In this document: piece by piece, positions 7,195 through 30,234 of the stretch
Position numbering within the stretch: position 1 is the first letter of the stretch
Layout of the letters: the number at the start of each line of letters is the position of its first letter
Virus record (IMG/VR): IMGVR_UViG_3300032240_002321
Span: 1 to 30,250 of that record
Origin: a virus
Length of the DNA stretch: 30,250 nucleotides
Reading direction: 5' to 3' (one strand)
Notes under the pieces: generated by a model
Seen by the model: the letters and a program-made list of their open reading frames with translations, nothing else
What the model was told of the DNA's origin: nothing
Database searches by the model: none
Position numbers and translations under genes: made by a program

Positions 7195-7223
7195 CACGTA
7201 ACCGTCATCAGGTTACGCGACAA
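7195..7223 (-). promoter_or_regulatory. Degenerate class I promoter-operator for 6819-7172
   Basis: Minus strand -35 TTGTCG (7223-7218), 17 bp, weak -10 TACGTG (7200-7195), dyad GTAACCTGATGACGGTTAC (7216-7198) with 6-bp arms. A further GTAACC half-site lies downstream (7173-7178, minus strand), next to the start codon. The GTCAGCAG start element is missing. It overlaps the stop codon of the nucleotidyltransferase-HAD gene, so the TET operon runs straight into it. Confidence 0.6.
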
Positions 7224-8247
7224 CCCCGAAAGACGCTAGAGCGGAAGAAAGTTCCTGCCCATCACGCACCACCTGTATGGCATCAGCAGTGCGCTCCCCA
7301 CGGCTGGGCACAGCATCGTTGACCAGTATTCGGCGGCAGTGTGGCAGCCCCATCAGCAGCTGGTCGTATCTCAGCTCGCGCAGCTGCTCGCGTGTGGCTT
7401 CTCTTGCCGTCTCGTCGCGGCTTGTTGTCAGCACGATGTAGACCTTACCAGTGGCGTGCAGCCTGTTCAGCGCATTCACGTTCTGTTGGATTAGCCCGCT
7501 GGTGCCCCACGTAGGGGCGAAGGTGCGGTGCCCGTTGGTAACCAGCACACCGTCGATGTCCACGAACAGCGTAGCCCATGCACGACGGTACTCTACCCAC
7601 GATTGCAACGTGTTCCAGTCCTCATACCCTTGCACCTCGTGCCAGCGTACTCCAGCGCCACCGTCAGCCAACGCCTGCATGACGCTACTGACGCGCGTGT
7701 GGTGCACGCTGACTCGCGAAAACTCGGCGGCATCCTCGAACGTATACGCACCTGCGAGGAATAGCGGCGACAGCACATCGCCCTCCACAAGCGAGCGCAC
7801 GCGGTCGCCATCAGCATGAATGAAGCCCTTTCCTGCTGCGCGCACCCTGCCGTCCATCGTGCAGATGTTCGCCACAGCGACTACGTGCCCTTGCTGGGGT
7901 AGCTCGTAGCTGAAACCGCTATCGCAGTCTCTGGTGCTGAACCTACCCGTGATCTCTGCCCTGCGAAGCGCCTCGCGCACGGTCTCTACGTGACTGCCAG
8001 TGTTGCCCACCACGCACAGCTCCGGGTTGTACCCAGCGTGGCAGAACTCGGCGCGCACCTGCTCCAGCGGGAAGCTGACGATGTGCTGCTCGCGCAGCGC
8101 CACGACCAGCCTGTCCCAGCCCGTGCAGCCCCGCAGCGCCTCCGCAGCCATCATCTGCCCACTGGGGTGCACCAGCGTCCATTTCGGGCGCTGCCCTTGG
8201 AACCGGGTGCTCTCGCCAGCGCAGGTCAGAATCAGTGTATGCGGCAC
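7213..8247 (-). CDS. Nucleotidyltransferase-HAD phosphatase fusion
   Basis: 344 residues from GTG 8247, behind GGAGG within the end of the kinase gene. Residues 1-215 are an NTP-transferase domain: CAGESTRF then RPKWTL (10-25, the sugar-nucleotide pyrophosphorylase G-x-RF...PK signature), TRDCDSGF (105-112, probable metal aspartates) and a late DWNTL. Residues 224-330 are a HAD-type phosphatase: FVDIDGVL (Asp230, Asp232), VLTTSR (272-277) and RILVNDAV (Asn310, Asp311). I recall this fusion from capsule loci, beside an APH-type kinase just as here. The likely job is to activate a phosphorylated sugar, polyol or amino-alcohol as an NDP/CMP derivative; the substrate cannot be read. Last gene of the TET operon, with third-codon bases that look less GC-saturated than the replication genes. 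Confidence 0.8.
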   Translation of the reverse strand: MPHTLILTCAGESTRFQGQRPKWTLVHPSGQMMAAEALRGCTGWDRLVVALREQHIVSFPLEQVRAEFCHAGYNPELCVVGNTGSHVETVREALRRAEITGRFSTRDCDSGFSYELPQQGHVVAVANICTMDGRVRAAGKGFIHADGDRVRSLVEGDVLSPLFLAGAYTFEDAAEFSRVSVHHTRVSSVMQALADGGAGVRWHEVQGYEDWNTLQSWVEYRRAWATLFVDIDGVLVTNGHRTFAPTWGTSGLIQQNVNALNRLHATGKVYIVLTTSRDETAREATREQLRELRYDQLLMGLPHCRRILVNDAVPSRGERTADAIQVVRDGQELSSALASFGVVA

Positions 8248-9047
8248 ACTGCCTCCATGCTCGCCTCGGCAGCTTGGCCCACCAGCCACCCACGCATCGC
8301 GGTTTCGCGCACGTAGGGCACAGCGCGCAGCAGCGCCAGTGCAGTCAGCGGTGCTACCCAAGGCCACCACGGCTCTCCGCACCAGCGGTCAACCCACCAG
8401 CGGTCTGCGGCGTGTGCGGCATCGGGCAGTGCTGCACCGTTGGCTTCTGCCCAGCCCCATCGGGTGTCTTGGCGCAGCTTGGCCACGTCTACCACTGGCG
8501 AGGGCACGTCGCTGTCGAGGAAGTCAATGGCAATCAGCCCTCCGTCACTACGGAGCAGCAGGTTGCACGTGGTGAAGTCACCATGAGGCTGCCCGAACGG
8601 AACGGCAGGCATGGCACCAGCGACCGCATCAGCACACGCAGCCAGTGCGGCGCGAAACGCCACCTCGTGCGTGCCGAGCGTGTGGCCAGTGCACCCGGAT
8701 TGCAACGCTGCCAGCTTCCGCAGCACTGCCTCGCGCACGCGGTGACCATCCACCAGTGTGGACGTGCACGCCTCAGCCACTGAGCCAGCTGCGTTCCACA
8801 GCCAGTCGGTTCCGAGCTGCTGGAGCGGGTGCACCCAGTCGGTGACACGCTCCATTCCGAACGAGAAGCTGCCAGAATCCCACTCGCTCCACAGCACGCG
8901 AGGAACCTGCACCTGCCTGATAGCGTGATGCCGCTGCCTCTCACAGCTGTACCACAGCCGCGCCGAGGCGATGCCGGGTGGCGCTCGCTTGATGGCCTCG
9001 CGCTCTGTCAGCTCTACGTGCGCCGAGCCGACCCCGACTGCCTTCAT
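8232..9047 (-). CDS. APH/choline-kinase-like phosphotransferase
   Basis: 271 residues. The kinase core is clear: HGDFTTCN at 155-162 (catalytic Asp157 and metal-binding Asn162, as in the HGDxxxxN loop of aminoglycoside and choline kinases) and AIDF at 173-176 (Asp175, the DFG-equivalent), followed by SPVVDVAKLRQD, a stretch I associate with the kinase partner of nucleotidyltransferase-HAD proteins in capsule loci. The N-lobe has REAIKRAPPG with a candidate ATP lysine (Lys20). It should phosphorylate a small hydroxylated molecule using ATP. Overlaps the glycosyltransferase gene by 4 bp (ATGA) and the next gene by 16 bp. True aminoglycoside resistance is unlikely in this setting. Confidence 0.78.
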   Translation of the reverse strand: MKAVGVGSAHVELTEREAIKRAPPGIASARLWYSCERQRHHAIRQVQVPRVLWSEWDSGSFSFGMERVTDWVHPLQQLGTDWLWNAAGSVAEACTSTLVDGHRVREAVLRKLAALQSGCTGHTLGTHEVAFRAALAACADAVAGAMPAVPFGQPHGDFTTCNLLLRSDGGLIAIDFLDSDVPSPVVDVAKLRQDTRWGWAEANGAALPDAAHAADRWWVDRWCGEPWWPWVAPLTALALLRAVPYVRETAMRGWLVGQAAEASMEAVCRIH

Positions 9048-9865
9048 GTGGCTGCCCTGCGCTTGTCGAGCACTGCCTGTAACCCTCGCCAGTCCACTAC
9101 ATCGGCGGGCGGGCGCTTGAAGCGCAGCTCAGCGAACGGGCTGCTCGCCTTCTCCTTCGCAGCGCACAGGTGCGCGAACCGCGACGTGAGGTAGCCCACT
9201 GCCTCGGCCTCTGCCGTGGCTCGGGCTGCCTTGTTCATTTCAGCCTGCATCCCGCCCTCCAGTGTGTAGCTGGAAGCAGCGCGCACACCGTAGCCGGGCA
9301 CCCTGCACACGAACCCGTCGCGCAGCCAGTAGAGCAGCGTGCGCTCATAGTCAGTCTTGCTGCGCTGGGTGACACGCAAGGATGTATCGCCACTTGCCGT
9401 GAACCCGAACAGGTGTGCAACCACAAGGTTCAGCCCGTAGCTAACGGTTTTTTGGAACATGAAAGCATTATCGTGCGGCGTCACACCCCACAGCCCACCG
9501 CGCGACAGCCCGAAGCCGAGCTTGGCGAGTTCGTACAGGTCTGGCACCTCGTGCTTCACGTTCTGCCCGGCTACCCCAGCGATTGCCACCACGTCGTCCT
9601 CCATGACGAGGACACGTGTGCCTGCCGAAAATGCGTCGTGTATAGCATTGAACTTTTCGGTTGCCGAGCGCGCGCCATCGCACACGTGCACCGTGTGGCC
9701 CGACGATGCACCGCTTGTTCGATACATTCGCTCGTCCTCTGCATCGCTCAGAAAAAGGTGCACGTCCGCGAGCGGAAAGCTGCTGGCTCGCAGCTGGCGC
9801 AGCGAGTGGGTGAGTATCGTGCTCGCACGCCTGTGTGTCGGTATCGCTACGACCGTCTGTGTCAT
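9044..9865 (-). CDS. TET-associated-type DNA glycosyltransferase
   Basis: 273 residues. A GT-A fold is shown by the N-terminal strand MTQTVVAIPTHRR, the metal/donor motif VLVMEDDV (Glu89-Asp90-Asp91), LWGVTPHDNAF (125-135) and KTDYERTLLYWLRDGFVCR (170-188). This order matches the TAGT family described by Aravind and colleagues next to TET/JBP genes in phages; those enzymes are proposed to glycosylate hydroxymethylpyrimidines in DNA. Here the gene lies 4 bp (ATGA) inside the TET-like gene's end, strongly suggesting that it modifies that enzyme's product. No signal peptide, so cytoplasmic. The donor sugar is unknown. A generic cell-surface glycosyltransferase is possible but less likely. Confidence 0.8.
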   Translation of the reverse strand: MTQTVVAIPTHRRASTILTHSLRQLRASSFPLADVHLFLSDAEDERMYRTSGASSGHTVHVCDGARSATEKFNAIHDAFSAGTRVLVMEDDVVAIAGVAGQNVKHEVPDLYELAKLGFGLSRGGLWGVTPHDNAFMFQKTVSYGLNLVVAHLFGFTASGDTSLRVTQRSKTDYERTLLYWLRDGFVCRVPGYGVRAASSYTLEGGMQAEMNKAARATAEAEAVGYLTSRFAHLCAAKEKASSPFAELRFKRPPADVVDWRGLQAVLDKRRAAT

Positions 9866-10755
9866 AGTGCACCCCGCCCCTTTGCTTTCTCCAGCTCGTC
9901 CTGCGGACTACGGCAGCCGATGATGCCCTCGCGGAAGTAGCACACAAGGCTGATACGATACCAATCCTCGTCCTGCTCACCCACAGCGTTGGAGGGTGGG
10001 ACGTTTCCATGCCACACCGTAGGGTCAAAGAACAGCACGTCGCCGTCCCGCAGGTGCGTGGCCACGCGGTACTCGGGCACCACCAGCTCGAAGCTGTCGA
10101 ACTGTCCCTTGCTGCACACCACCATCACACCGAAGCCCTCTTTCAAGTCCCCGCCGTCGCGGTGGTAGGCTGCTGGGACGCTGTTGTTCACCGTGATGGT
10201 GGTGAACGGTGTGCCGGGAATAACCCACGACGGGTCGACCTTGGCCACGGTGCCCATCTGCGCCTTCCAGCGCAGCGGCACGGTGTCCCGGTACAGCTCG
10301 CCCACGTTGCGCAGCAGTGGCTGCAGGCTCTCCCACTCGGCTGGGTGGTTGCGCAAAAACGCCGTCTGGCGACAGAACGGGTGCCGCCCGCCCTGTGGTT
10401 CAAAGAACCCAGCGATGGCGCTGCGAACCTCCAGCTTGTTGCCTTGCTCGTCGAACGCCGCGTTCTGCTTGGCAACGGTGCCATCGGAGTTGACACGCTT
10501 GCTGACGATGCCGCCTGCGTAGTCCGTGCGGTTGTCGGACACGAAACGCCGCATCCAGTGCAGCGTGGGGCGCGCCTGCTCCAGTGCCTCGGCGGCCAGC
10601 CTCCCGCGCCGCACGAACAGCAGCGGGGCACCGCTCGGTGCGTACAGGTCGCACTCGCCAGTGACCTTGATGTCGTAGTGCTCGGGCAGTGGGTGGCGGC
10701 CCTTCCATGCCGCCACCTGCTCCTCGGGCACCCTCGTGCGCAGCACGGCACGCAT
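9862..10755 (-). CDS. TET/JBP-family 2-oxoglutarate/Fe(II) dioxygenase
   Basis: 297 residues. The core double-stranded beta-helix carries the iron triad His198-x-Asp200 (AAYHRDGGD) and His249 (TVWHGNVP), with a candidate 2-oxoglutarate arginine at 267 (WYRISLVCYF). Flanking sequence, TTITVNNS before the HxD, EGFGVMVV and FELVVPEYRVATHLRDGDVLFFDP between the ligands, follows the TET/JBP subfamily rather than AlkB or prolyl hydroxylases. These enzymes oxidise the methyl group of 5-methylcytosine (TET) or thymine (JBP) in DNA; phage TETs are known to make 5-hydroxymethylcytosine that is then further modified. The ATG at 10755 overlaps the ParB-like stop (TGATG). Substrate base is inferred, not shown. 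Confidence 0.87.
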   Translation of the reverse strand: MRAVLRTRVPEEQVAAWKGRHPLPEHYDIKVTGECDLYAPSGAPLLFVRRGRLAAEALEQARPTLHWMRRFVSDNRTDYAGGIVSKRVNSDGTVAKQNAAFDEQGNKLEVRSAIAGFFEPQGGRHPFCRQTAFLRNHPAEWESLQPLLRNVGELYRDTVPLRWKAQMGTVAKVDPSWVIPGTPFTTITVNNSVPAAYHRDGGDLKEGFGVMVVCSKGQFDSFELVVPEYRVATHLRDGDVLFFDPTVWHGNVPPSNAVGEQDEDWYRISLVCYFREGIIGCRSPQDELEKAKGRGAL

Positions 10756-11462
10756 CAGTCCCGCCAGTCGCCAGCAGCCACGAGCACCGCGCGCCGCACG
10801 GTGTCCGTGATGTTGTCGGTGCCGTACTGCTCGGCCAGCTTGCGCACCGCCATCTGGAACCCGTCAACCGTGCTGTCATCGAGGAACAGCTGCACCAGCC
10901 GCACGCTGCTGGTGGGCATAGGCGACGGCACGGTGTGCTCACCGGGTACGCCAACGGGCAGCGCGGGCGGCAGCTGGTTGACAGGCAGCTTGCTGGTATC
11001 GCGTGGCGGCGGCTCGGGGATGGCGGCCTGCTCCACCTCGCCCACGTAGGCGGCCACCAGCGCATCCATTTCCGCAGTGCTGAACCCCAGCGCATCCACA
11101 TCGAACGCGCCCTCCAGCGAAGACAAGTCGGCAAGGTGCCGCGCCAGCACAGCCTCGTCCCAGCCAGCCAGCTCGCCCGTGCGGTTCAGCGCGATGGACA
11201 GCTTGCGCGCCTCGGTGTCGCTGACGTCCAGCAGCGCCACACGTGCCAGCTTCCACCCCAGTGTGCGCATGGCCTCGGCGCGCCCGTTGCCACCGATGAC
11301 CATCATCGTGGACTTCTGCACCAGCAGCGGCTCCACCTGCCCGTGCTCGCGCAGGCTTGCGGCGATGGCGGCGAGGTTGCGCGCGTCGTGCGTGCGTGGG
11401 TTGGCAGGGTCGGGGCGCAGGTCGGCCAGCGCCACGGTGGAGAGGGTCAGTTCTTCGGTCAT
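10755..11462 (-). CDS. ParB-like nuclease/CTPase-fold protein
   Basis: 235 residues, ATG 11462 behind CTGGAGCACACCT. Residues 5-110 are a ParB/Srx domain: VALADLRPDPANPRTHD, then LAAIAASLREHGQVEPLLVQ, the box-II-like VIGGNGRAEAM (55-65) and LDVSDTEARKLSIALNRT. This form, with GGNGR, is common in phages fused or adjacent to DNA methyltransferases. The linker is proline-rich and the C-terminus is a small helical domain (VDGFQMAVRKLAEQYGTDNI). The ParB centromere-binding HTH is absent, so plasmid partitioning is unlikely. Situated directly before the TET-like gene, it may guide or license modification. Confidence 0.82.
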   Translation of the reverse strand: MTEELTLSTVALADLRPDPANPRTHDARNLAAIAASLREHGQVEPLLVQKSTMMVIGGNGRAEAMRTLGWKLARVALLDVSDTEARKLSIALNRTGELAGWDEAVLARHLADLSSLEGAFDVDALGFSTAEMDALVAAYVGEVEQAAIPEPPPRDTSKLPVNQLPPALPVGVPGEHTVPSPMPTSSVRLVQLFLDDSTVDGFQMAVRKLAEQYGTDNITDTVRRAVLVAAGDWRD

Positions 11463-11755
11463 AGGTGTGCTCCAGTCAGCAGGTATGCCAGCAGCCCACC
11501 CACCGCTGCGCCTGTCGCAGTGGAGGCGAACACCAGCAGGTAGAAGGCGCGCGGGATGTGCAGCGCAGCCTGCGCGCGCGGAGGGGCGAGAAACAGCAGC
11601 AGCTCGCTCCGCTCGCCCCGCTGCGCGGGTAGCGCCGCAAGCGGTGTCCACCCGGCTGCCAGCAGTCCCGCCAGCGCGGGGCTGCGCACAGCGGCCTCCG
11701 GGTCGTCCATCGGCAGGGACACCACCGTGGCCTGCTCGGGAAGGCGCGCACTCAC
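11459..11755 (-). CDS. C-tail membrane protein (98 aa)
   Basis: GTG start 11755-11753 overlapping the upstream stop (GTGA). Soluble first 65 residues (MSARLPEQATVVSLPMDD...), then one hydrophobic segment of about 25 residues near the C-terminus (FYLLVFASTATGAAVGGLLA) and a three-residue tail after the last leucines. A tail-anchored single-span protein in the middle of a DNA-modification operon is unexpected. Its stop overlaps the ParB-like start by 4 bp. Function unknown. Confidence 0.65.
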   Translation of the reverse strand: MSARLPEQATVVSLPMDDPEAAVRSPALAGLLAAGWTPLAALPAQRGERSELLLFLAPPRAQAALHIPRAFYLLVFASTATGAAVGGLLAYLLTGAHL

Positions 11756-12024
11756 GCGGGCACCGTAGCGGGTCGCCGTGCAGCCACCAGCTGACGTCCA
11801 GCCGCCCCAGCGCGAATGACACCATGCGCGCGGAACCAGACCAGCCGTTCGTTCGGGTGCTCGCGCAGGTGCCGTTCCTCCATGCGCGCGTAGGCGCGGC
11901 TGTCGCGCTCTGGCACCTCGGACAGCGTTGCGGCCACCACCACGTCACCCGGCTCCAGCACCAGCTGGTCGTGCGTCGAACCATTCATCATGAACACCAT
12001 CCTCGCGGCTACCCTGTATGTCAC
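11752..12024 (-). CDS. Unknown protein (90 aa)
   Basis: Start taken at GTG 12024, overlapping the upstream TGA behind GGAGAGG; an ATG eight codons later is possible. Core sequence LVLEPGDVVVAATLSEVP then RAYARMEERHLREHPNERLV and WFRAHGVIRAG suggests a beta-strand pair, an amphipathic helix and a final strand. The compact, arginine-rich C-terminus might contact nucleic acid. I do not recognise the family. Second gene of the TET operon. Confidence 0.65.
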   Translation of the reverse strand: MTYRVAARMVFMMNGSTHDQLVLEPGDVVVAATLSEVPERDSRAYARMEERHLREHPNERLVWFRAHGVIRAGAAGRQLVAARRPATVPA

Positions 12025-12917
12025 GCCTCTCCGACTACCACACCCGACGCCTGCGCGGCGTTGTCCAGCGCAGCATCCCACACGCGCGGCACCAGCTCCC
12101 ACGCGAAGTCGGGCCGAGCTTGAATCAGCTGCTGCGCGTACAGGTGCCCGATGGCGGTGATGACGTCATGCCAGCTTGGCACCAGCCCGCTGTCAGCGCA
12201 CCGCTCAACGTAGTCCTCCAGCATGGCATCCAGCTCGCAGTGCTGCGGGGCCACCACATCGAGCACGGTGGCGGGCCTGCCCTCGCCCAGCTCGCACGCT
12301 GTGACAAAATCCGCCCCCATCTCCTGCACGTGCACCATGCTCCCGCTGTGCTCGGTCACCAGCCCTGCCACAGCCTCGTCGCCCTGCTGCACCACCACCA
12401 GCCGCCCCACCAGCGAGGCAGGCCCACCGGGGCCACGCAAGCCACTGGCGCGGACGCCCACAGCGTCGGCCACCGACAGGCGCGGCGCTCCTTGCGTGTC
12501 CAGCCGCACCTGCACCACCTCGTCCAGTCGGTACACCACATCGGTGGCGGCACGCTCCAGCAGCCCGTGCACGCGCAGGCGCACCACCAGCACCGCCTGC
12601 GCAGCGGTGCAGCTCACCGTCGCCTGCTTCACCTCGGCGTGACCCCGTGCGAGGTGCGTCCCGTCCTCGGCCACCAGCTCCACCGCGCACAGGTCGAACC
12701 CTCCCGTCGTGCTGGCCTTGCCACGCGCACCGTCTGCGCCGCCTGCGTAGGCGCGCGCAGCGCCGGGCACGTACACATCCACCAGCTCGGCAGCATCGGC
12801 GTCAGGAACCTCCATCGACAGGTCGTAGTCCCAGCAGACGCTGCTGCCGTCGCGGCGCGGGCTGGCCTTGGCGAGTCGCATCATGGCGGTGGTCGGCAGG
12901 TTGCACAGGTCGAGCAT
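12021..12917 (-). CDS. First gene of the TET operon, unknown (298 aa)
   Basis: ATG 12917 sits five bases after AAGGAG; a GTG two codons earlier is less well placed. 298 residues beginning MLDLCNLPTTAMMRLAKASP. The first 220 residues are rich in beta-strand (AVELVAEDGTHLARGHAEVK, AVLVVRLRVHGLLER, VVYRLDEVVQVRLD, LVGRLVVVQQGDEAVAGLV) and the last 80 are helical (ELDAMLEDYVERC... WHDVITAIGHLYAQQLIQ). No cysteine pairs or nucleotide-binding loop. It is the largest unknown in the modification operon and sets its start. Confidence 0.75.
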   Translation of the reverse strand: MLDLCNLPTTAMMRLAKASPRRDGSSVCWDYDLSMEVPDADAAELVDVYVPGAARAYAGGADGARGKASTTGGFDLCAVELVAEDGTHLARGHAEVKQATVSCTAAQAVLVVRLRVHGLLERAATDVVYRLDEVVQVRLDTQGAPRLSVADAVGVRASGLRGPGGPASLVGRLVVVQQGDEAVAGLVTEHSGSMVHVQEMGADFVTACELGEGRPATVLDVVAPQHCELDAMLEDYVERCADSGLVPSWHDVITAIGHLYAQQLIQARPDFAWELVPRVWDAALDNAAQASGVVVGEA

Positions 12918-12932
12918 GTTCACTCCTTCCCC

Positions 12933-12980: not shown

Positions 12981-13724
12981 CTACGCAGCCGCCTGCGCGC
13001 CAGCCAGCCGTGCAGCCAGCACCACGCGCACGCTGCTGGCGTGCCACGCACCACCGCTGCGGGACAGGTGGCCAGCCTCTGCCAGCATCGCGCCGATGCG
13101 GCGTAGGCTATGCCCCTCGCTGTGCAGCAGCTGCGCCAGCACGATGGCGTCCTGCTCGCCAGCGACCGGGTGTAGCTTGCCCTTGGCGTCGGCCTGCCAT
13201 CCGTAGGGCGCGCGGCCACCCGTGTATTCGCCTTCGGCTTTCATGTGCGCCATCGCGCTGGCGGTGCGTTCGCCGATAGTCTCGCGCTCCCACTGCGCCA
13301 CCGACATGAGCACATTCAGCACCAGCCTGCCGCCAGCGGTGCGGGTGTCCACCTGCTCCTGCACGGACAGCAGCGCGGGGCCATCCTTGCGCCCGAACCA
13401 GCCGTCCAGCAAGGTGCCGAGGTCGCGCACACTGCGCGTCAGGCGGTCGAGCTTGCACACCAGCAGCGCATCGGCCTTGCCACTGTCCAGCATGGCCAGT
13501 GCACGAGTCAGCCCGTCGCGCTCCAGCGTCTTGGCGCTGGCACCTGCGTCCACCACCACCTCAACGATGTCAAGCTCGTACAGGTCAGCATACATCTGCA
13601 CTTTTGCGCGCTGCGCATCGAGCGACACGCCGAAGTCGGCCTGCTTCTCGGTGGACACGCGCAGGTATGCGACGGCGCGGGTGCGGGTGGATGCGGTGGT
13701 GGTGGTGCTGCTGGTGCGTGCCAT
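12981..13724 (-). CDS. Serine recombinase (resolvase/invertase size)
   Basis: 247 residues, ATG 13724 behind GCAGGAG. The resolvase catalytic domain is clear: AVAYLRVSTEKQADFGVSLD (17-36) with nucleophile Ser24, then ADALLVCKLDRLTRSVRDLG and VLMSVAQWERETIGERTASA. It is followed by a short recombinase-type DNA-binding region (GRAPYGWQADAKGKL, LHSEGHSLRRIGAMLAEAGH with a helix-turn-helix). It is half the length of large serine integrases and lacks their zinc and coiled-coil parts, so dimer resolution, inversion or a minimal integration role are all possible. No attachment or crossover site was recognised nearby. Transcribed from the class I promoter at 13733-13795. Confidence 0.9.
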   Translation of the reverse strand: MARTSSTTTTASTRTRAVAYLRVSTEKQADFGVSLDAQRAKVQMYADLYELDIVEVVVDAGASAKTLERDGLTRALAMLDSGKADALLVCKLDRLTRSVRDLGTLLDGWFGRKDGPALLSVQEQVDTRTAGGRLVLNVLMSVAQWERETIGERTASAMAHMKAEGEYTGGRAPYGWQADAKGKLHPVAGEQDAIVLAQLLHSEGHSLRRIGAMLAEAGHLSRSGGAWHASSVRVVLAARLAGAQAAA

Positions 13725-13732
13725 GTGAACTC

Positions 13733-13795
13733 CTGCTGACCAAAACGTAGTAACACCTGCGCCGTTACCAGCGCAAGGGCTACACGACACTTTTC
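13733..13795 (-). promoter_or_regulatory. Class I promoter-operator for the serine recombinase
   Basis: Minus strand: CAGAAAAGTGT upstream element (about 13797-13787), -35 TTGCGC at 13776-13771, 18 bp spacer, -10 TACTAC at 13752-13747, GTCAGCAG at 13740-13733 from the predicted +1. Dyad GTAACGGCGCAGGTGTTAC at 13768-13750. The GCAGGAG ribosome site overlaps the end of GTCAGCAG. Confidence 0.8.
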
Positions 13796-13802
13796 TGTTA
13801 GG

Positions 13803-14075
13803 TCAGCGCCAGCCAGCTGCGAGGTCGCAGGCAGCGTAGGCGGCGTCCACCTCGTCGGGCGAAGGCTCCCCGCGCGCGTAGGCGCTGCGCAGCCTGTCGT
13901 GCGCGCACTCGCGCTGCTGCTGCTCCAGCCCCTCCACCATCTCGGCGCGAGCCTGCTCGCCCACCTGCACCTGCACCACGTCGGGCTGGAGCCAGCACCA
14001 CACGGTCAGCGCCATGAATGCGCTCAGCACCAGCGCCACGAGTGCCTCCTGCCAGACCAGCTGCGCGCGGCTCAC
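13803..14075 (-). CDS. Membrane-anchored coiled-coil protein (90 aa)
   Basis: GTG start 14075-14073 overlapping the upstream TGA. Residues 8-30 are hydrophobic (WQEALVALVLSAFMALTVWC), making an N-terminal anchor; the rest is polar and helical (QVQVGEQARAEMVEGLEQQQ and on), likely a coiled coil facing the periplasm or cytoplasm. This layout, short anchor plus helix, is shared with phage spanin-like and i-spanin proteins, but no lysis genes are adjacent, so the role is open. Second gene of a two-gene operon. Confidence 0.65.
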   Translation of the reverse strand: MSRAQLVWQEALVALVLSAFMALTVWCWLQPDVVQVQVGEQARAEMVEGLEQQQRECAHDRLRSAYARGEPSPDEVDAAYAACDLAAGWR

Positions 14076-14230
14076 TGTGCACCCTGCACGGTGCGGCAGA
14101 TAGCGGAGAGGCGGTCGCTTGCTGCATCGCGCTCTGCCAGCACAGCGCGGGCGACCTGCCCGATGGCACTGTCGAGGACGGCGAGCGCGCGAAGCTCGCG
14201 GGTGGTGGCGTTGCGAAGGTCGGTGTTCAT
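14072..14230 (-). CDS. Small helical protein (52 aa)
   Basis: ATG 14230-14228 behind AGGAGTCTAAA. Fifty-two residues beginning MNTDLRNATTRELRALAVLD, one or two amphipathic helices and nothing else recognisable. First gene of the pair behind the class I promoter at 14257-14318. Confidence 0.65.
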   Translation of the reverse strand: MNTDLRNATTRELRALAVLDSAIGQVARAVLAERDAASDRLSAICRTVQGAQ

Positions 14231-14256
14231 TTTAGACTCCTGCGATGTTGACGTTG

Positions 14257-14318
14257 CTACTGACCCCACCACAGTAACCGGACAGCAGTTACGCGCAAGG
14301 GCAGTAGCAAACATTTTT
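14257..14318 (-). promoter_or_regulatory. Class I promoter-operator for 13803-14230
   Basis: Minus strand: GAAAAATGTTTGC (14320-14308), -35 TTGCGC at 14298-14293, 16 bp spacer, -10 TACTGT at 14276-14271, GTCAGTAG at 14264-14257 at the predicted +1. Dyad GTAACTGCTGTCCGGTTAC at 14292-14274. 14321-14408, toward the divergent gene, shows no convincing plus-strand promoter. Confidence 0.85.
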
Positions 14319-14408
14319 CAGACCTGCACGTGGCGTATCCGTTCAGCCGCGTTGAGCATGATGAAGGCACTCGTTCGGCGTGATACCGGCAGGCGTGGAC
14401 TTTTCCAG

Positions 14409-14861
14409 ATGACCGCCGAGCAGCCACCAGCCATCCAGCGTCAGCGCACCGCCATCGCTCGGCGTCGGTTCAGCGTTCCCATGCGCACCGCGATGGAGCA
14501 TGGCATCATCGTCAAGGGGCGCACGATTCTGGACTACGGGTGCGGGCGTGGCAGCGACCTCCAGCTGCTGACTGCGCTGGGCTACAAAGCCAGCGGGTTC
14601 GACCCACACTTCCGGCCAGTTCCCTACTCGCCAGCCGATGTCGTCAACCTCGGGTACGTGCTGAACGTCATCGAGGATCGTGCCCAGCGTAGGGCAACCC
14701 TGCTGGATGCGTGGGCGCACGCTCGGCTCGCACTGGTGGTCGGCGTGTACCTTGGCAGCCAGCAGGGTGAGACAGCCCTTGACGACGGCTACGTGACCAA
14801 GGCTGGCACGTTCCAGTGGTGGCAGGCCCATGCGAGTGCGGCGACTAACCGACTACGCTGA
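14409..14861 (+). CDS. Short methyltransferase, phosphorothioation-associated type
   Basis: 150 residues from ATG 14409; an ATG at 14360 in the same frame is possible, and neither has a strong ribosome site. The protein matches the N-terminal part of the 'DNA phosphorothioation-associated putative methyltransferase' family as I remember it: RTAIARRRFSVPMRTAME, the SAM-binding motif ILDYGCGRGSD (40-50), GFDPHFRP, VVNLGYVLNVIED (78-90) and DGYVTKAGTFQ (126-136). The family is usually several hundred residues, so this is a shortened, possibly single-domain version ending just past GTFQ. One of four plus-strand genes, flanked by minus-strand operons. Target (DNA, RNA or small molecule) unknown. 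Confidence 0.75.
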   Translation: MTAEQPPAIQRQRTAIARRRFSVPMRTAMEHGIIVKGRTILDYGCGRGSDLQLLTALGYKASGFDPHFRPVPYSPADVVNLGYVLNVIEDRAQRRATLLDAWAHARLALVVGVYLGSQQGETALDDGYVTKAGTFQWWQAHASAATNRLR

Positions 14862-26264: not shown

Positions 26265-26912
26265 CTACCCGTCACGGCTGCGCCTCCATTCGTACTCTTT
26301 CCCGAGGCATGGCCCAGCGTGCGCATCCCGCCTCCATTCGTCGGTGCCGTCGTACTCGTGCGACACAGCGTTGAGCACCCACGCCTCACCGTAGCCGGGC
26401 AGCGCCAGCCAGCCGTGCGCCCAGCCGGGTGGCACCACCACCTGTGCGGCGTTTCTCTCCGGGTGCAGCAGCACCTCGTGCACGGGTGGCAGTGCACCAC
26501 CCAGCAGCACAGCCTGCGCGTGCTCTCGCACGTCGTACAGCGCGAGAAGCACAGCACCACGCAGCACCGCGAAGCGGTCAGACTGCTGCGCGTGCAGGTG
26601 CCAGCCCTTCACCACGCCCTCGGCGGTGGTGCTGACATAGACCTGCTCCACTGTTCCGGGCATCGGTGCCCCGTCCTCGGTGTGCGCGCTGCTGTGCCAG
26701 CTTCCACCGTGCCAGCTGCGGCGGTGCAGCTCCACCAGCGCGCCACGCGCATCCACGTGCCACCGAAGCGGGCGCACCTGCACGGGTGCAGCGTGCCCCA
26801 GCCCGGTTCCGCCCAGCGTGCGCGCCTGTGGGTGCGGGTGGCGCTGTGGGCTGGTTGCCCACTGCGTGAAGCCAGCCTGCTGGTAGAGGTGGGCGGTCTG
26901 TTCATCTGTCAT
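26265..26912 (-). CDS. RmlC-like cupin (dTDP-sugar 3,5-epimerase fold)
   Basis: 215 residues, ATG 26912 overlapping the upstream stop. Residues 95-195 match RmlC: TTAEGVVKGWHLHAQQSDRF (95-114, with the active-site His in the HxH of strand 3), VLRGAVLLALYDVRE, HPERNAAQVVVPPGWAHGWL and a C-terminal NAVSHEYDGTDEW holding a candidate Tyr187. RmlC inverts C3 and C5 of dTDP-4-keto-6-deoxyglucose in rhamnose synthesis; relatives act on other nucleotide sugars or only bind. The N-terminal 90 residues are extra. Other rml genes are absent, so it may supply a sugar for the DNA glycosyltransferase or tailor a host precursor. Last gene of the operon 26265-28793. Confidence 0.75.
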   Translation of the reverse strand: MTDEQTAHLYQQAGFTQWATSPQRHPHPQARTLGGTGLGHAAPVQVRPLRWHVDARGALVELHRRSWHGGSWHSSAHTEDGAPMPGTVEQVYVSTTAEGVVKGWHLHAQQSDRFAVLRGAVLLALYDVREHAQAVLLGGALPPVHEVLLHPERNAAQVVVPPGWAHGWLALPGYGEAWVLNAVSHEYDGTDEWRRDAHAGPCLGKEYEWRRSRDG

Positions 26913-27322
26913 GGTGTCTCCAGTGTGGTGATGCGGGGAAGAAGCTCGATGCTGGGTGGGTAGCCGTACACGCGCACCCACAGGTCGCGCAGCGTGCCAT
27001 AGACCGCGCCACTGGCCTGCCCGTCGCGCTGCTCCAGCACGTGCCACAGCGCGGCGTCCACAGCGCCCTGCGCGGTGTGGTGCAGGTAGAGGTGACGCAG
27101 GCGGGCATCCAGCCTGCACCAGCGGCCACCCCACAGGCGCAGGCGCTCCAGCTGCGCTGCTGTCAGCCCGCCCTCGCCCGCCAGCGCCATGCGCGCCTCC
27201 TCGCACAGCGCGCCTGCTGGCTCCCAGCAGACCGACAGCTCGGCAAGGCGGGCGCAGGCCAGCAGCGCCTGTGCGCGCGCCACGCTGGGGTGCGGCACAC
27301 CCGCCGCGCTACGGGAGCGCAT
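26909..27322 (-). CDS. Unknown helical protein (137 aa)
   Basis: ATG 27322-27320 lies 14 bp inside the end of the VWA gene. 137 residues: a helical N-terminal two-thirds (VARAQALLACARLAELSVCW, TAAQLERLRLWGGRWC, RLRHLYLHHTAQGAVDAALW) followed by VYGTLRDLWVRVYGYPPSIE and a short tail. The tryptophan-rich helices suggest a packed bundle. No function recognised. It sits between the VWA and RmlC-like genes. Confidence 0.65.
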   Translation of the reverse strand: MRSRSAAGVPHPSVARAQALLACARLAELSVCWEPAGALCEEARMALAGEGGLTAAQLERLRLWGGRWCRLDARLRHLYLHHTAQGAVDAALWHVLEQRDGQASGAVYGTLRDLWVRVYGYPPSIELLPRITTLETP

Positions 27323-28793
27323 TCGCCACCGCCTTGCTGTCGTCGCTGCTGCTGGCAGCGTCGAGGTCAACCACGTGGTCGGTCAGCTGGCGCACTGCGT
27401 GGCCGAGGCTGCCACCGCCCACCGTCAGGCCGAACACGCGCAGCCCGTCCTCCTTGGCAGCGGTCAGCGCCTGCATCACGCTGGTGGGTGCCTCGGCGTG
27501 GCCATCGGTCACCAGCACGAGGTCGGCACGCTCACGGGTCACACCGTCCTCCAGCTGGAGCGCAGCGCGAAGCGCCGGGGCGAAGTCGGTGCCACCGTTC
27601 GGGCGGCTGCTCGCAACGTGCAGCGCCACCTCGGCGCAGCCGCCCATCGCAGTGGCCAGCGCCATGTCGCTGGTGCTGTGCCGCCACGCCTTGCCAGCGG
27701 CATCGAGGCGCACGACGTAGCGCACCGAACCGTTGAACCCGATCACCGTGCAGGCGCGGCGCTCGCGGGCAGCGGTGCCGAGGCAGGCCAGCGCCACAGC
27801 GGTGGCCCACAGGCTGCGCTCGCCTTCCATGCTGCTGCTCTCGTCCAGCAGCACCACGATGGGGCCGCGACCCTTCGGCACATCGCCGACCACGTGGTAC
27901 TGCTGGAGGCGACGGTCAGCCAGCTTGGCAAGCTGCACGCGGCGCAGGCGCGCGTGGCGCAGCAGGCCCAGCTCGGTGGGCAGCGCGCGGGGAAGGTCGC
28001 CGCCGATGGTGGTTCCCACCAGCGTGGACGCGCCGAGGTCGTCGCGCACCTTGCGCCCGTCGCTGGCGAGGCGGCGCAGGCGACCCGCGAGCTTCATCAC
28101 GCGCTTCAGCCGCGCATCGCTGCTGACGCGCTCGGCCAGCGACATCCGGGCGGTGCCGTCCTGCTCGTGCTGGGCAGGCGTCTCGCCGAGGCCGGGAGCC
28201 AGCGCGTCCATCGCGTCGGCAGCGTCGGCGGTGGCCTGCGCTGCGTCCGCGCAAGCTGCGCGCATCGCGCGGCGCATCGCACCGTCCGCGTCCGCCTTCG
28301 GGCCACGCTGCGCGCGCCCCAGCGCCTGCTGCGCGTCCTGCTGCGCCTGCTGGCGCTCCTGCTCGGCCACCTGCGGCAGCGCGCCAGCCACGCCGCGCAG
28401 CAGCTGGGCGGTGGCCAGCGCGGCGAGGTCGGGGTCGCCCGCCACCTGCGCGGCGAGCTGCTGGTACTCGGGCAGCGCAGCCAGCTGGTCGTGCGCGCGC
28501 TGCACCAGCTGCGTGTCGGGCGCGGGCTTGTCCAGCGCGACGGTGTCGGCGGCGTCGTACAGGCCAGCGAACACCTCGCGGGCGAAGCTGGTGGCCAGCG
28601 TGTCAAGGCGGCGGGCCTCGGCCTGCGTGTCGGTGCTGGTCTTGGCGTGCGCGGCGAAGGCGCGGGACACCTCGGCGCGCGCGCTGCGCAGCGTGGTACT
28701 GGAAGCCCCGCGGCTGGTGAACAGGTAGTCAGCCCAGCGGCTGACGGTGCGGGTGGCGTCGGTGTGGCGGGCGGTGGCGTAGGCTGCGGTCAT
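27309..28793 (-). CDS. VWA-domain protein, ViaA/CobT-like partner of the MoxR ATPase
   Basis: 494 residues, ATG 28793 behind GCAGGAGCAGACA. Residues 1-300 are helical and highly charged, with a glutamine-rich stretch (141-160). Residues 312-490 form a von Willebrand factor A domain with a complete metal-binding MIDAS: LLDESSSMEGE (DxSxS, Asp317, Ser319, Ser321), NGGTDFAPAL and LVTDGHAEAP. Such proteins pair with MoxR-family AAA+ ATPases (RavA-ViaA, CobS-CobT) as metal-dependent chaperones or insertases. The next operon encodes exactly such an ATPase. First gene of its operon. Confidence 0.88.
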   Translation of the reverse strand: MTAAYATARHTDATRTVSRWADYLFTSRGASSTTLRSARAEVSRAFAAHAKTSTDTQAEARRLDTLATSFAREVFAGLYDAADTVALDKPAPDTQLVQRAHDQLAALPEYQQLAAQVAGDPDLAALATAQLLRGVAGALPQVAEQERQQAQQDAQQALGRAQRGPKADADGAMRRAMRAACADAAQATADAADAMDALAPGLGETPAQHEQDGTARMSLAERVSSDARLKRVMKLAGRLRRLASDGRKVRDDLGASTLVGTTIGGDLPRALPTELGLLRHARLRRVQLAKLADRRLQQYHVVGDVPKGRGPIVVLLDESSSMEGERSLWATAVALACLGTAARERRACTVIGFNGSVRYVVRLDAAGKAWRHSTSDMALATAMGGCAEVALHVASSRPNGGTDFAPALRAALQLEDGVTRERADLVLVTDGHAEAPTSVMQALTAAKEDGLRVFGLTVGGGSLGHAVRQLTDHVVDLDAASSSDDSKAVANALP

Positions 28794-28919: not shown

Positions 28920-30062
28920 CTACCCGGCGAGGCCCACGCCCAGCCCGCTGGCTGCCATGAAACGGCGGGCCAGCCCCTTGCGAAGCTCGACCACCTGTGC
29001 GTGACAGGCCACCACATCGGCGTCGTCCATGCCGAGCGCCACCAGCTCGGCCTCTGCTGCCTTGATGCGCTGGAGCACGCGAGCACCGTCAGCGGTGGCA
29101 TCGCGCACGGTGTCGTGCGCCTCGCGGGCGCTGTCCGCGATGCGCTGCGCGGCAGCCATCTTCGGCGCGGCCACTGCCAGCACCGTGGCCAGCACAGCGG
29201 CGCGCTGGTCGTGGCGCTGCCACACGCTGTCGGCCAGCACGAGCAGGTCGCGGGCGGTGGCGGTGGTGCGACCGTTCAGCGCAGCGTGCGCCTGCACCAG
29301 CCGCACCATCTGGCGCAGGCGGCGGTCGCTCACCGTGATGCCGTTGTCCTTGGCGAGCTTGTCGGCGCAGTCGCACAGCAGCTCCAGCACCTGCGGAGGC
29401 ACCACCACGTCGCGCACCGCCTGCTGGAGCAGGCGCACCGCCTCCGGGGCCAGCTTGGCGGTCACAGCCTGCGCCGGGTCGGCGGCGGTCAGCAGGGCGA
29501 TGCGCCCAGCGCGGGTCGGCACGTATGCCGTCCAGTAGCGCAGGGTGAAGCGGTCGTAGAGCGCGTCGAGGCTGGCGTCCTCGGGGTACTCGTTGCTCGC
29601 GCCCACGCACAGCTCCAGCGGCAGCTGGAGGCGCTGCGTGCCGTTGTCGAACTCGCGCTCGTTCAGCACGGTCAGCAGGCTGTTGAGGATGGCGCTGTTC
29701 GCCTTGAACACCTCGTCGCAGAACGCCACGGTGGCGGTGGGCAGGTAGCCCTGCACCGCGCGCTCGTAGCGCCCAGCGTCCAGCGCGGCGAGGTCGTAGG
29801 GGCCGAACAGCTCCTCGGGCGCGGTGAACGCAGTCAGCAGGCGCTGGAAGTAGCTGCCGCCGAGCGCGCCAGCGAACACCTGCGTGACCAGCGACTTGGC
29901 GGTTCCGGGAGGGCCGAGCAGCAGCACGTGCGTGCGGGCGAGCAGCGCGAGGAGCAGCCCGTCGATCTCCGCGTCACGGGCGACGAACGCGCCCTTCATC
30001 TGGGTGCGGAGGGTGGTGAGCTGCGCGCGGGCGGTGGCGAGGTCGAGGCTTTCGGTGGTCAT
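28920..30062 (-). CDS. MoxR/RavA-type AAA+ ATPase
   Basis: 380 residues, ATG 30062 behind GCAGGAGCACACA. N-terminal AAA+ core: Walker A LLLGPPGTAKS (47-57), the pre-Walker-B MoxR stretch FTAPEELFGPYD (79-90), Walker B VAFCDEVFKAN (112-122) and a sensor-1 region LCVGASNEYPED. The C-terminal 150 residues are helical (lid domain then ERIKAAEAELVALG-like coiled coil). MoxR ATPases form hexamers that act with VWA proteins to remodel or load cofactors into targets. Here it sits immediately upstream of the VWA operon, each with its own class I promoter, so the two are likely co-controlled. Confidence 0.92.
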   Translation of the reverse strand: MTTESLDLATARAQLTTLRTQMKGAFVARDAEIDGLLLALLARTHVLLLGPPGTAKSLVTQVFAGALGGSYFQRLLTAFTAPEELFGPYDLAALDAGRYERAVQGYLPTATVAFCDEVFKANSAILNSLLTVLNEREFDNGTQRLQLPLELCVGASNEYPEDASLDALYDRFTLRYWTAYVPTRAGRIALLTAADPAQAVTAKLAPEAVRLLQQAVRDVVVPPQVLELLCDCADKLAKDNGITVSDRRLRQMVRLVQAHAALNGRTTATARDLLVLADSVWQRHDQRAAVLATVLAVAAPKMAAAQRIADSAREAHDTVRDATADGARVLQRIKAAEAELVALGMDDADVVACHAQVVELRKGLARRFMAASGLGVGLAG

Positions 30063-30100
30063 TGTGTGCTCCTGCGGGTGGTTGCGGTGGGCGGGATGCC

Positions 30101-30144
30101 CTGCTGACAGAAAGCTACTAACCGCGCCCCGGTTACAGGCGCAA
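30101..30144 (-). promoter_or_regulatory. Class I promoter-operator for the MoxR-like gene
   Basis: Minus strand -35 TTGCGC (30144-30139), 18 bp, -10 TAGTAG (30120-30115), GTCAGCAG (30108-30101) from the predicted +1. Dyad GTAACCGGGGCGCGGTTAG (30136-30118). An A run just upstream of the -35 (ACAAAAAACC) serves as the A-rich element. Leader about 45 bases. Confidence 0.8.
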
Positions 30145-30166
30145 GGTTTTTTGTCGGTGCAGTCGC

Positions 30167-30207
30167 AAAAAAGATGAAGGCGCGCTGACCAGCAAGGCCA
30201 GCGCGCC
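30167..30207 (-). terminator. Strong intrinsic terminator of a gene entering from the right
   Basis: Minus-strand RNA GGCGCGCUGGCC (30207-30196), loop UUGCU, GGUCAGCGCGCC (30190-30179): 12 bp with one G-U pair, then UUCAUCUUUUUUG. It implies a minus-strand gene ending just to the right. Confidence 0.85.
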
Positions 30208-30234
30208 ATCGCAAGGGCGAACCCCGCGCGCGGG

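Follow-up and report, generated by a model that had tools for sequence, protein, structure and literature searches.

In kinetoplastids, base J is made by JBP1 and JBP2 together with a glucosyltransferase, thymine being oxidised in DNA and then O-glycosylated (PMC6449724). In the characterised phages that hypermodify thymidine, a 5-hydroxymethyldeoxyuridine (5hmdU) DNA kinase, and then transferases, work on 5hmdU that normally comes from the nucleotide pool; glucosylated 5hmdU had not been reported from phage genomes as of 2019, later reports being possible (PMC6449724). In this work, we describe an operon built around a TET/JBP dioxygenase gene in a linear virus fragment of 30,250 bp, the complete IMG/VR record IMGVR_UViG_3300032240_002321 (hereafter the window). 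With a probability that we put at about two in three, its sequence features point to a post-replicative operon in which the TET enzyme would make 5-hydroxymethyluracil (5hmU) from thymine and a cassette would add a self-made nucleoside diphosphate sugar (NDP-sugar), giving base-J-like DNA.

Judged by gene content, the proposed chemistry is that of the base J pathway, with thymine oxidation in DNA by a TET/JBP enzyme followed by O-glycosylation, but the window operon differs by its ParB partner, its TAGT-type GT-A enzyme and its own sugar-activation genes. The thymidine hypermodification systems of phages M6, ViI and phiW-14 comprise a dUMP hydroxymethylase, a 5hmdU DNA kinase and transferases, and kinase and amino acid:DNA transferase (ADDT) families are also the usual partners of the window's TET class. 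In those phages 5hmU is pool-made, whereas we propose a TET acting on DNA, and no gene of the thymidylate synthase (TS) family was found in the window or its nearest relatives. A five-gene cluster of Rhodococcus phage Tonitrus, with ParB, tet-like, aGPT-Pplase2 and 5hmU-kinase genes, was called a thymidine hypermodification system in a 2025 annotation (PMC11955845). It shares the ParB-like and tet-like head of the window operon, but continues with aGPT-Pplase2 and 5hmU kinase instead of a sugar cassette, and its function is known by annotation only. Genes gp8-gp12 of Synechococcus phage S-CBWM1 include, behind TET, the window's set in rearranged form with split genes: a TAGT-like glycosyltransferase, HAD and nucleotidyltransferase genes, and gp12, which is weakly similar to APH kinases. 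There, however, HAD and nucleotidyltransferase are separate genes in another order and no ParB was detected beside TET. The phage cytosine systems of the Melnitz type, which pair a C5-methyltransferase (C5-MTase) with TET, have in common with the window the TET/JBP enzyme, its catalytic residues and, in some loci, a TAGT-like glycosyltransferase; unlike them, the window class is without C5-MTase, has ParB and carries other residues at position 275 and further positions.

TET-based hypermodification of phage DNA was reportedly predicted, and partly shown, by Iyer et al. 2013 and Burke et al. 2021, the latter being said to include phage TETs with proven activity on 5-methylcytosine (5mC). To our knowledge, the phage TETs with tested activity oxidise 5mC. 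The concept of a TET operon is already known, and the version with thymine and a sugar supply is new. Other new points are the scarcity of C5-MTase throughout the class, set against a positive-control clade, a precise cassette exchange in a sibling, and a TET operon with its own sugar-activation module.

A TET/JBP operon with an exchangeable cassette

The operon consists of eight co-directional minus-strand genes (7213-12923) that overlap, from first to last, by 4, 4, 4, 1, 4, 4 and 16 bp. An original prediction, made from the sequence alone, had described eight genes with overlaps of 1-16 bp, and recomputed gene coordinates bear this out, except that its span (7213-12917) ended 6 bp short of the start of the first gene. 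The arrangement is not due to chance, because the order of the upstream genes and the ParB-TET pair is kept in four related records. The ParB-like gene already recognised ahead of TET (10755-11462, minus strand, 235 aa) matches PF02195 at about 1e-6 and phrog_620 at 1e-35, and its product is possibly a targeting or scaffold factor.

The next gene (9862-10755, minus strand, 297 aa) encodes an Fe(II)/2-oxoglutarate DNA-base dioxygenase. The profile search that had been named in advance as a refutation test gave a match to Tet_JBP (E 2.1e-25, 89.3 bits against a curated cut-off of 34.9) and negligible matches to PhyH and Cupin. The residues His198-x-Asp200, His249 and Arg267 are present as had been described, and these four positions, the HxD...H iron triad and the 2-oxoglutarate-binding arginine, are invariant in 86 TET clusters. 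By profile and residues, the product is a true TET/JBP dioxygenase, for which oxidation of 5-methylpyrimidine in DNA is predicted. Phage TETs are widely misnamed in annotations, as seen for the TET genes of L008, L012 and L014 and for phrog_6059; S-CBWM1, Cr30 and DLP6 have theirs labelled "putative SNF2 DNA repair protein", and for Mycobacterium and Microbacterium phages the name given is "queuine tRNA-ribosyltransferase".

The TET gene is followed, with a 4-bp overlap, by a glycosyltransferase gene (9044-9865, minus strand, 273 aa) whose product matches phrog_25200 at 6e-21. Its AlphaFold model (predicted local distance difference test score, pLDDT, 93.5) shows a GT-A fold, with Z scores of about 14-15 to RmlT, TarS and GalNAc-T2, and the acidic motif E89-D90-D91 was confirmed, D90 being invariant and D91 nearly so among 25 homologues. 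Motif, fold and adjacency to TET agree with the TAGT-type enzyme that had been predicted, but the Pfam TAGT score (PF20691, 4e-4, 20.7 bits) lies under the cut-off of 27.5; a close homologue in L018 exceeds it with 28.5 bits. A TET-associated glycosyltransferase is nevertheless supported.

The predicted APH-type kinase (8232-9047, minus strand, 271 aa), presumably a sugar kinase of small-molecule type, passes the PF01636 cut-off (7.4e-6, 26.3 bits against 23.2) and carries the HGD...N...D signature as HGDFTTCN...IDF, with HGD at residue 155; no sequence match was found among solved structures. The last gene (7213-8247, minus strand, GTG start, 344 aa) encodes the expected fusion of a nucleotidyltransferase (about residues 1-225) and a HAD phosphatase (about residues 226-344). 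No Pfam match was found for the nucleotidyltransferase half, whose model matches NDP-sugar pyrophosphorylases (Z 22.1 to 4evw, about 21 to GlmU and IPCT) and the inositol-1-phosphate cytidylyltransferase 4jd0 (Z 21.3). It has the motifs AGESTR...RPK and DCD, of which the former gives the G-x-x-x-R...PK signature (AGESTRFQGQRPK), and as modelled its fold is that of an NDP-sugar pyrophosphorylase. The HAD half matches HAD_SAK_2 (PF18143) at 1e-6 and shows DIDGV at 230, LTTSR at 273 and VND at 309; its C-terminus has low pLDDT, and the PDB fold lists for the whole model contain nucleotidyltransferases only. Kinase, phosphatase and nucleotidyltransferase together would have the functions for making an NDP-sugar out of a sugar or its phosphate, which supports the presence of dedicated sugar-activation genes in the operon. 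The fusion is paired with the kinase in other phages as well, within islands of genes that resemble sugar metabolism (neighbours read by eye). An RmlC-like sugar epimerase/cupin gene in the replication region (26265-27206, minus strand) was considered as a further part of the pathway and rejected, since a sibling without the cassette has a copy too.

This sibling (record G001, TET locus L003, 79 kb) has a TET 78% identical to that of the window and is largely collinear with it in two stretches, one between the MoxR gene and TET and one below the cassette. The segment with the glycosyltransferase, kinase and nucleotidyltransferase/HAD genes (7213-9861, minus strand) has no counterpart in G001, which holds between the same neighbours genes for a P-loop kinase, sulfotransferase-like and arginine-deiminase-like proteins, and an ADDT (1.6e-17). 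The GC content of the cassette is 0.64 (about 0.74 at third codon positions) against 0.69-0.70 in most of the record. Among other near relatives, L020 has kinase and ADDT genes (ADDT 1e-34), and L016, L017 and L082 have TAGT and radical SAM genes. The set of the window recurs in L018, where the reading frame of the kinase is split, and behind ParB-TET in the distant L233. The decoration types are mixed on the TET tree, and the row nearest to the window is the kinase-type sibling. The exchange and this mixing indicate that the shared element is TET, which supplies a chemical handle, and that the cassettes behind it are exchanged; that of the window is one of several modules that can replace each other after a conserved ParB-TET core.

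In L003 (11415-13285), sulfotransferase-like and arginine deiminase/dimethylargininase-like genes lie between the kinase and ADDT, a set that suggests an unusual amino-acid-derived DNA decoration. In L016 (10872-14558) and L082, TET is followed by genes for a ParB-like protein, a 420-aa protein without assignment, TAGT and radical SAM-SPASM, which may represent another decoration chemistry.

The base acted upon by the TET enzyme

The TET, glycosyltransferase and sugar-activation genes support well the original prediction that the phage DNA is hypermodified, but its choice of cytosine as the decorated base was not supported. A handle of 5-hydroxymethylcytosine (5hmC) requires a source of 5mC, and no C5-MTase (PF00145) was found in the window, an incomplete record, or in the sibling. 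Counting these two, the family was absent from 119 of 121 IMG/VR TET records and present in two. It was likewise absent from all 12 complete isolate TET phages outside the Melnitz class (S-CBWM1, P12024L, HTVC112P, Altadena, Cr30, C48C1, DLP6, Terij, Nigel, Acadian, Kharcho and LittleMunchkin). As a positive control, the Melnitz-type clade carries C5-MTase in 49/49 IMG/VR records searched and in Melnitz itself, and in Methylophilales phage Melnitz-3 an HhaI-type methyltransferase gene overlaps the TET gene. After clustering at 80% identity, all 11 Melnitz-type clusters for which upstream DNA was available had C5-MTase, as compared with 2 of 86 (Fisher p about 8e-13, uncorrected for relatedness). 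In Melnitz-type marine phages (L242, 2203-4387) such an HhaI-like C5-MTase gene overlaps TET and makes with it a consistent pair of the cytosine class.

The partner genes of the window class belong, instead, to thymidine-hypermodification families. Within 6 kb of TET we found ADDT homologues in 36 of the 86 clusters, ParB in 39, kinases in 25 and glycosyltransferases in 16, and Pfam searches of nonredundant TET neighbours confirmed ADDT (best 1e-34), Ploopntkinase3 and TAGT. No member of the TS/dUMP-hydroxymethylase family was found in 16 of 18 records tested, including the ADDT-bearing L003 and L020; Cr30 has one and P12024L gave a sub-threshold match of 43 aa only. PF00303 was not found in the window or the sibling, both incomplete records. 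Since 16 of 18 records are without such a supplier, the simplest and likely source of 5hmU is TET. Over the hundreds of relatives compared, the great rarity of C5-MTase in the class and the thymidine-hypermodification partners, together with the use of genes of this kind by the sibling at the corresponding position, make thymine more likely than cytosine as the predicted base of the window TET.

Residue 275, which aligns with His1904 of TET2, presumably a base-contacting residue in its structure, provides a further lead. It is Arg in nearly all TETs of the window class, Leu or Ile in actinophage TETs and Asp in 10/11 Melnitz-type (C5-MTase-linked) clusters; the amino group of cytosine could donate to an Asp, and thymine O4 could accept from an Arg. 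Arg275 alone was rejected as a thymine marker, because the fungal CcTET, which we take to be a 5mC enzyme, aligns with Arg there.

Several observations weigh against thymine. Besides the apparent Arg of CcTET, L233 has the cassette of the window and His at residue 275. A local scan showed C5-MTase homologues near four TETs of the window class (L090, L177, L178 and L195). TAGT-like glycosyltransferases accompany both TET classes, with matches at three Melnitz-type loci, so the glycosyltransferase does not tell the base. Finally, the window is a 30-kb fragment and its IMG/VR relatives may be incomplete, and a methyltransferase could lie in the missing DNA, an objection that the 12 complete isolates answer for the wider group only. 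L090, the first relative seen with an adjacent C5-MTase, was rejected as a seed of a cytosine class, its clade including P12024L, which is without C5-MTase.

Proposed mechanism and competing explanations

Very probably, the operon acts on bases that are part of the phage DNA, oxidising a methyl group on them and then attaching a sugar activated by its own enzymes. As we envisage it, the ParB-like protein and TET would act on finished phage DNA, where TET, like JBP in trypanosomes, would oxidise the 5-methyl group of thymine to 5hmU. An NDP-sugar would be made from a sugar of the host, or from its phosphate, by the APH-fold kinase, the HAD phosphatase and the nucleotidyltransferase, and from it the TAGT-like GT-A enzyme would move the sugar onto the hydroxymethyl group. 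The resulting bulky, base-J-like thymine might shield the DNA from nucleases, and on general grounds a role against restriction or CRISPR may fairly be supposed. A little less confidently, we lean towards the wider view that many phage TET/JBP enzymes, forming a large class with that of the window, are thymine dioxygenases, with 5hmU as a universal handle for amino acid-derived (kinase and ADDT) or sugar cassettes, and that the phage of the window glycosylates thymine with its own sugar nucleotide.

The TET might instead oxidise 5mC, supplied by a host methyltransferase or an unseen phage one, to 5hmC, which the glycosyltransferase would then glycosylate. The phage TETs with reportedly proven 5mC activity (Burke et al. 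2021), the TAGT-like enzymes beside C5-MTase-linked TETs and the C5-MTase near a few relatives of the window class would agree with it, yet we consider it unlikely given the distribution of C5-MTase described above, with its near absence here and constant presence in the Melnitz class, and the thymidine-type partners.

Two further explanations concern the cassette. That the kinase and nucleotidyltransferase/HAD protein make an activated alcohol or polyol phosphate, in the manner of LicA/LicC or of inositol phosphate, so that DNA would receive a non-sugar or phosphodiester group via TET, would suit APH-fold kinases, which include choline kinases, and the match to 4jd0. It seems improbable to us, since the gene directly ahead of the pair encodes a GT-A transferase, which is kept with these genes in S-CBWM1 and L233, and the top structural match is an NDP-sugar pyrophosphorylase. 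Still more improbable is that the three cassette genes serve to build a glycan of the surface or virion and only happen to adjoin TET: homologous kinase-nucleotidyltransferase/HAD pairs are indeed seen apart from TET in other phages, within islands that have sugar-nucleotide-type genes (neighbours read by eye), but the overlap of the glycosyltransferase and TET genes, the TAGT-type enzyme behind TET in L018, L233 and S-CBWM1, and the DNA-modification genes in the same slot of the sibling argue otherwise.

Genomic context and significance

The operon begins with a conserved protein of 300 aa (12021-12923, minus strand), 62% identical in G001 and with homologues in L016, L017, L020 and L082, for which no match was found in Pfam or PHROG. 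Two conserved proteins of the upstream core follow, of 90 aa (11752-12024) and 98 aa (11459-11755), both on the minus strand and with homologues in the same order in L003, L016, L017 and L082. Directly upstream of the operon lies a short serine recombinase (12981-13790, minus strand, 269 aa), found at the same place in the sibling with 79% identity.

Apart from one short plus-strand remnant, all recognisable genes of the window are on the minus strand, among them primase/helicase, Sak4-like annealing protein, exonuclease, helicase, RecU, vWA and MoxR ATPase genes. The vWA and MoxR AAA ATPase pair (27309-28793 and 28920-30209, minus strand; bpMoxR 1e-58) has more than 70% identity in the sibling. 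The remnant (14433-14861, plus strand, inside the reading frame 13899-14861) corresponds to the N-terminal part of a DNA phosphorothioation-associated methyltransferase (TIGR04096, profile positions 2-136 of 478; 149.6 bits, the cut-off being 150); the gene is truncated, lies on the opposite strand and has no copy in G001. No tRNA was found in the window. A search of genome contigs with the TET alignment returned no relative and hence no host or prophage context, and tblastn with the primase gave distant phage relatives only.

The exchange of cassettes behind a fixed ParB-TET core would offer phages a way to change their DNA chemistry quickly. The C5-MTase dichotomy, together with residue 275, makes the choice between cytosine and thymine directly testable with single enzymes. 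If the TET class of the window acts on thymine, it would provide a direct enzyme for 5hmU-DNA, and base-J-like chemistry would exist in phages, which would bear on the origin of the JBP enzymes.

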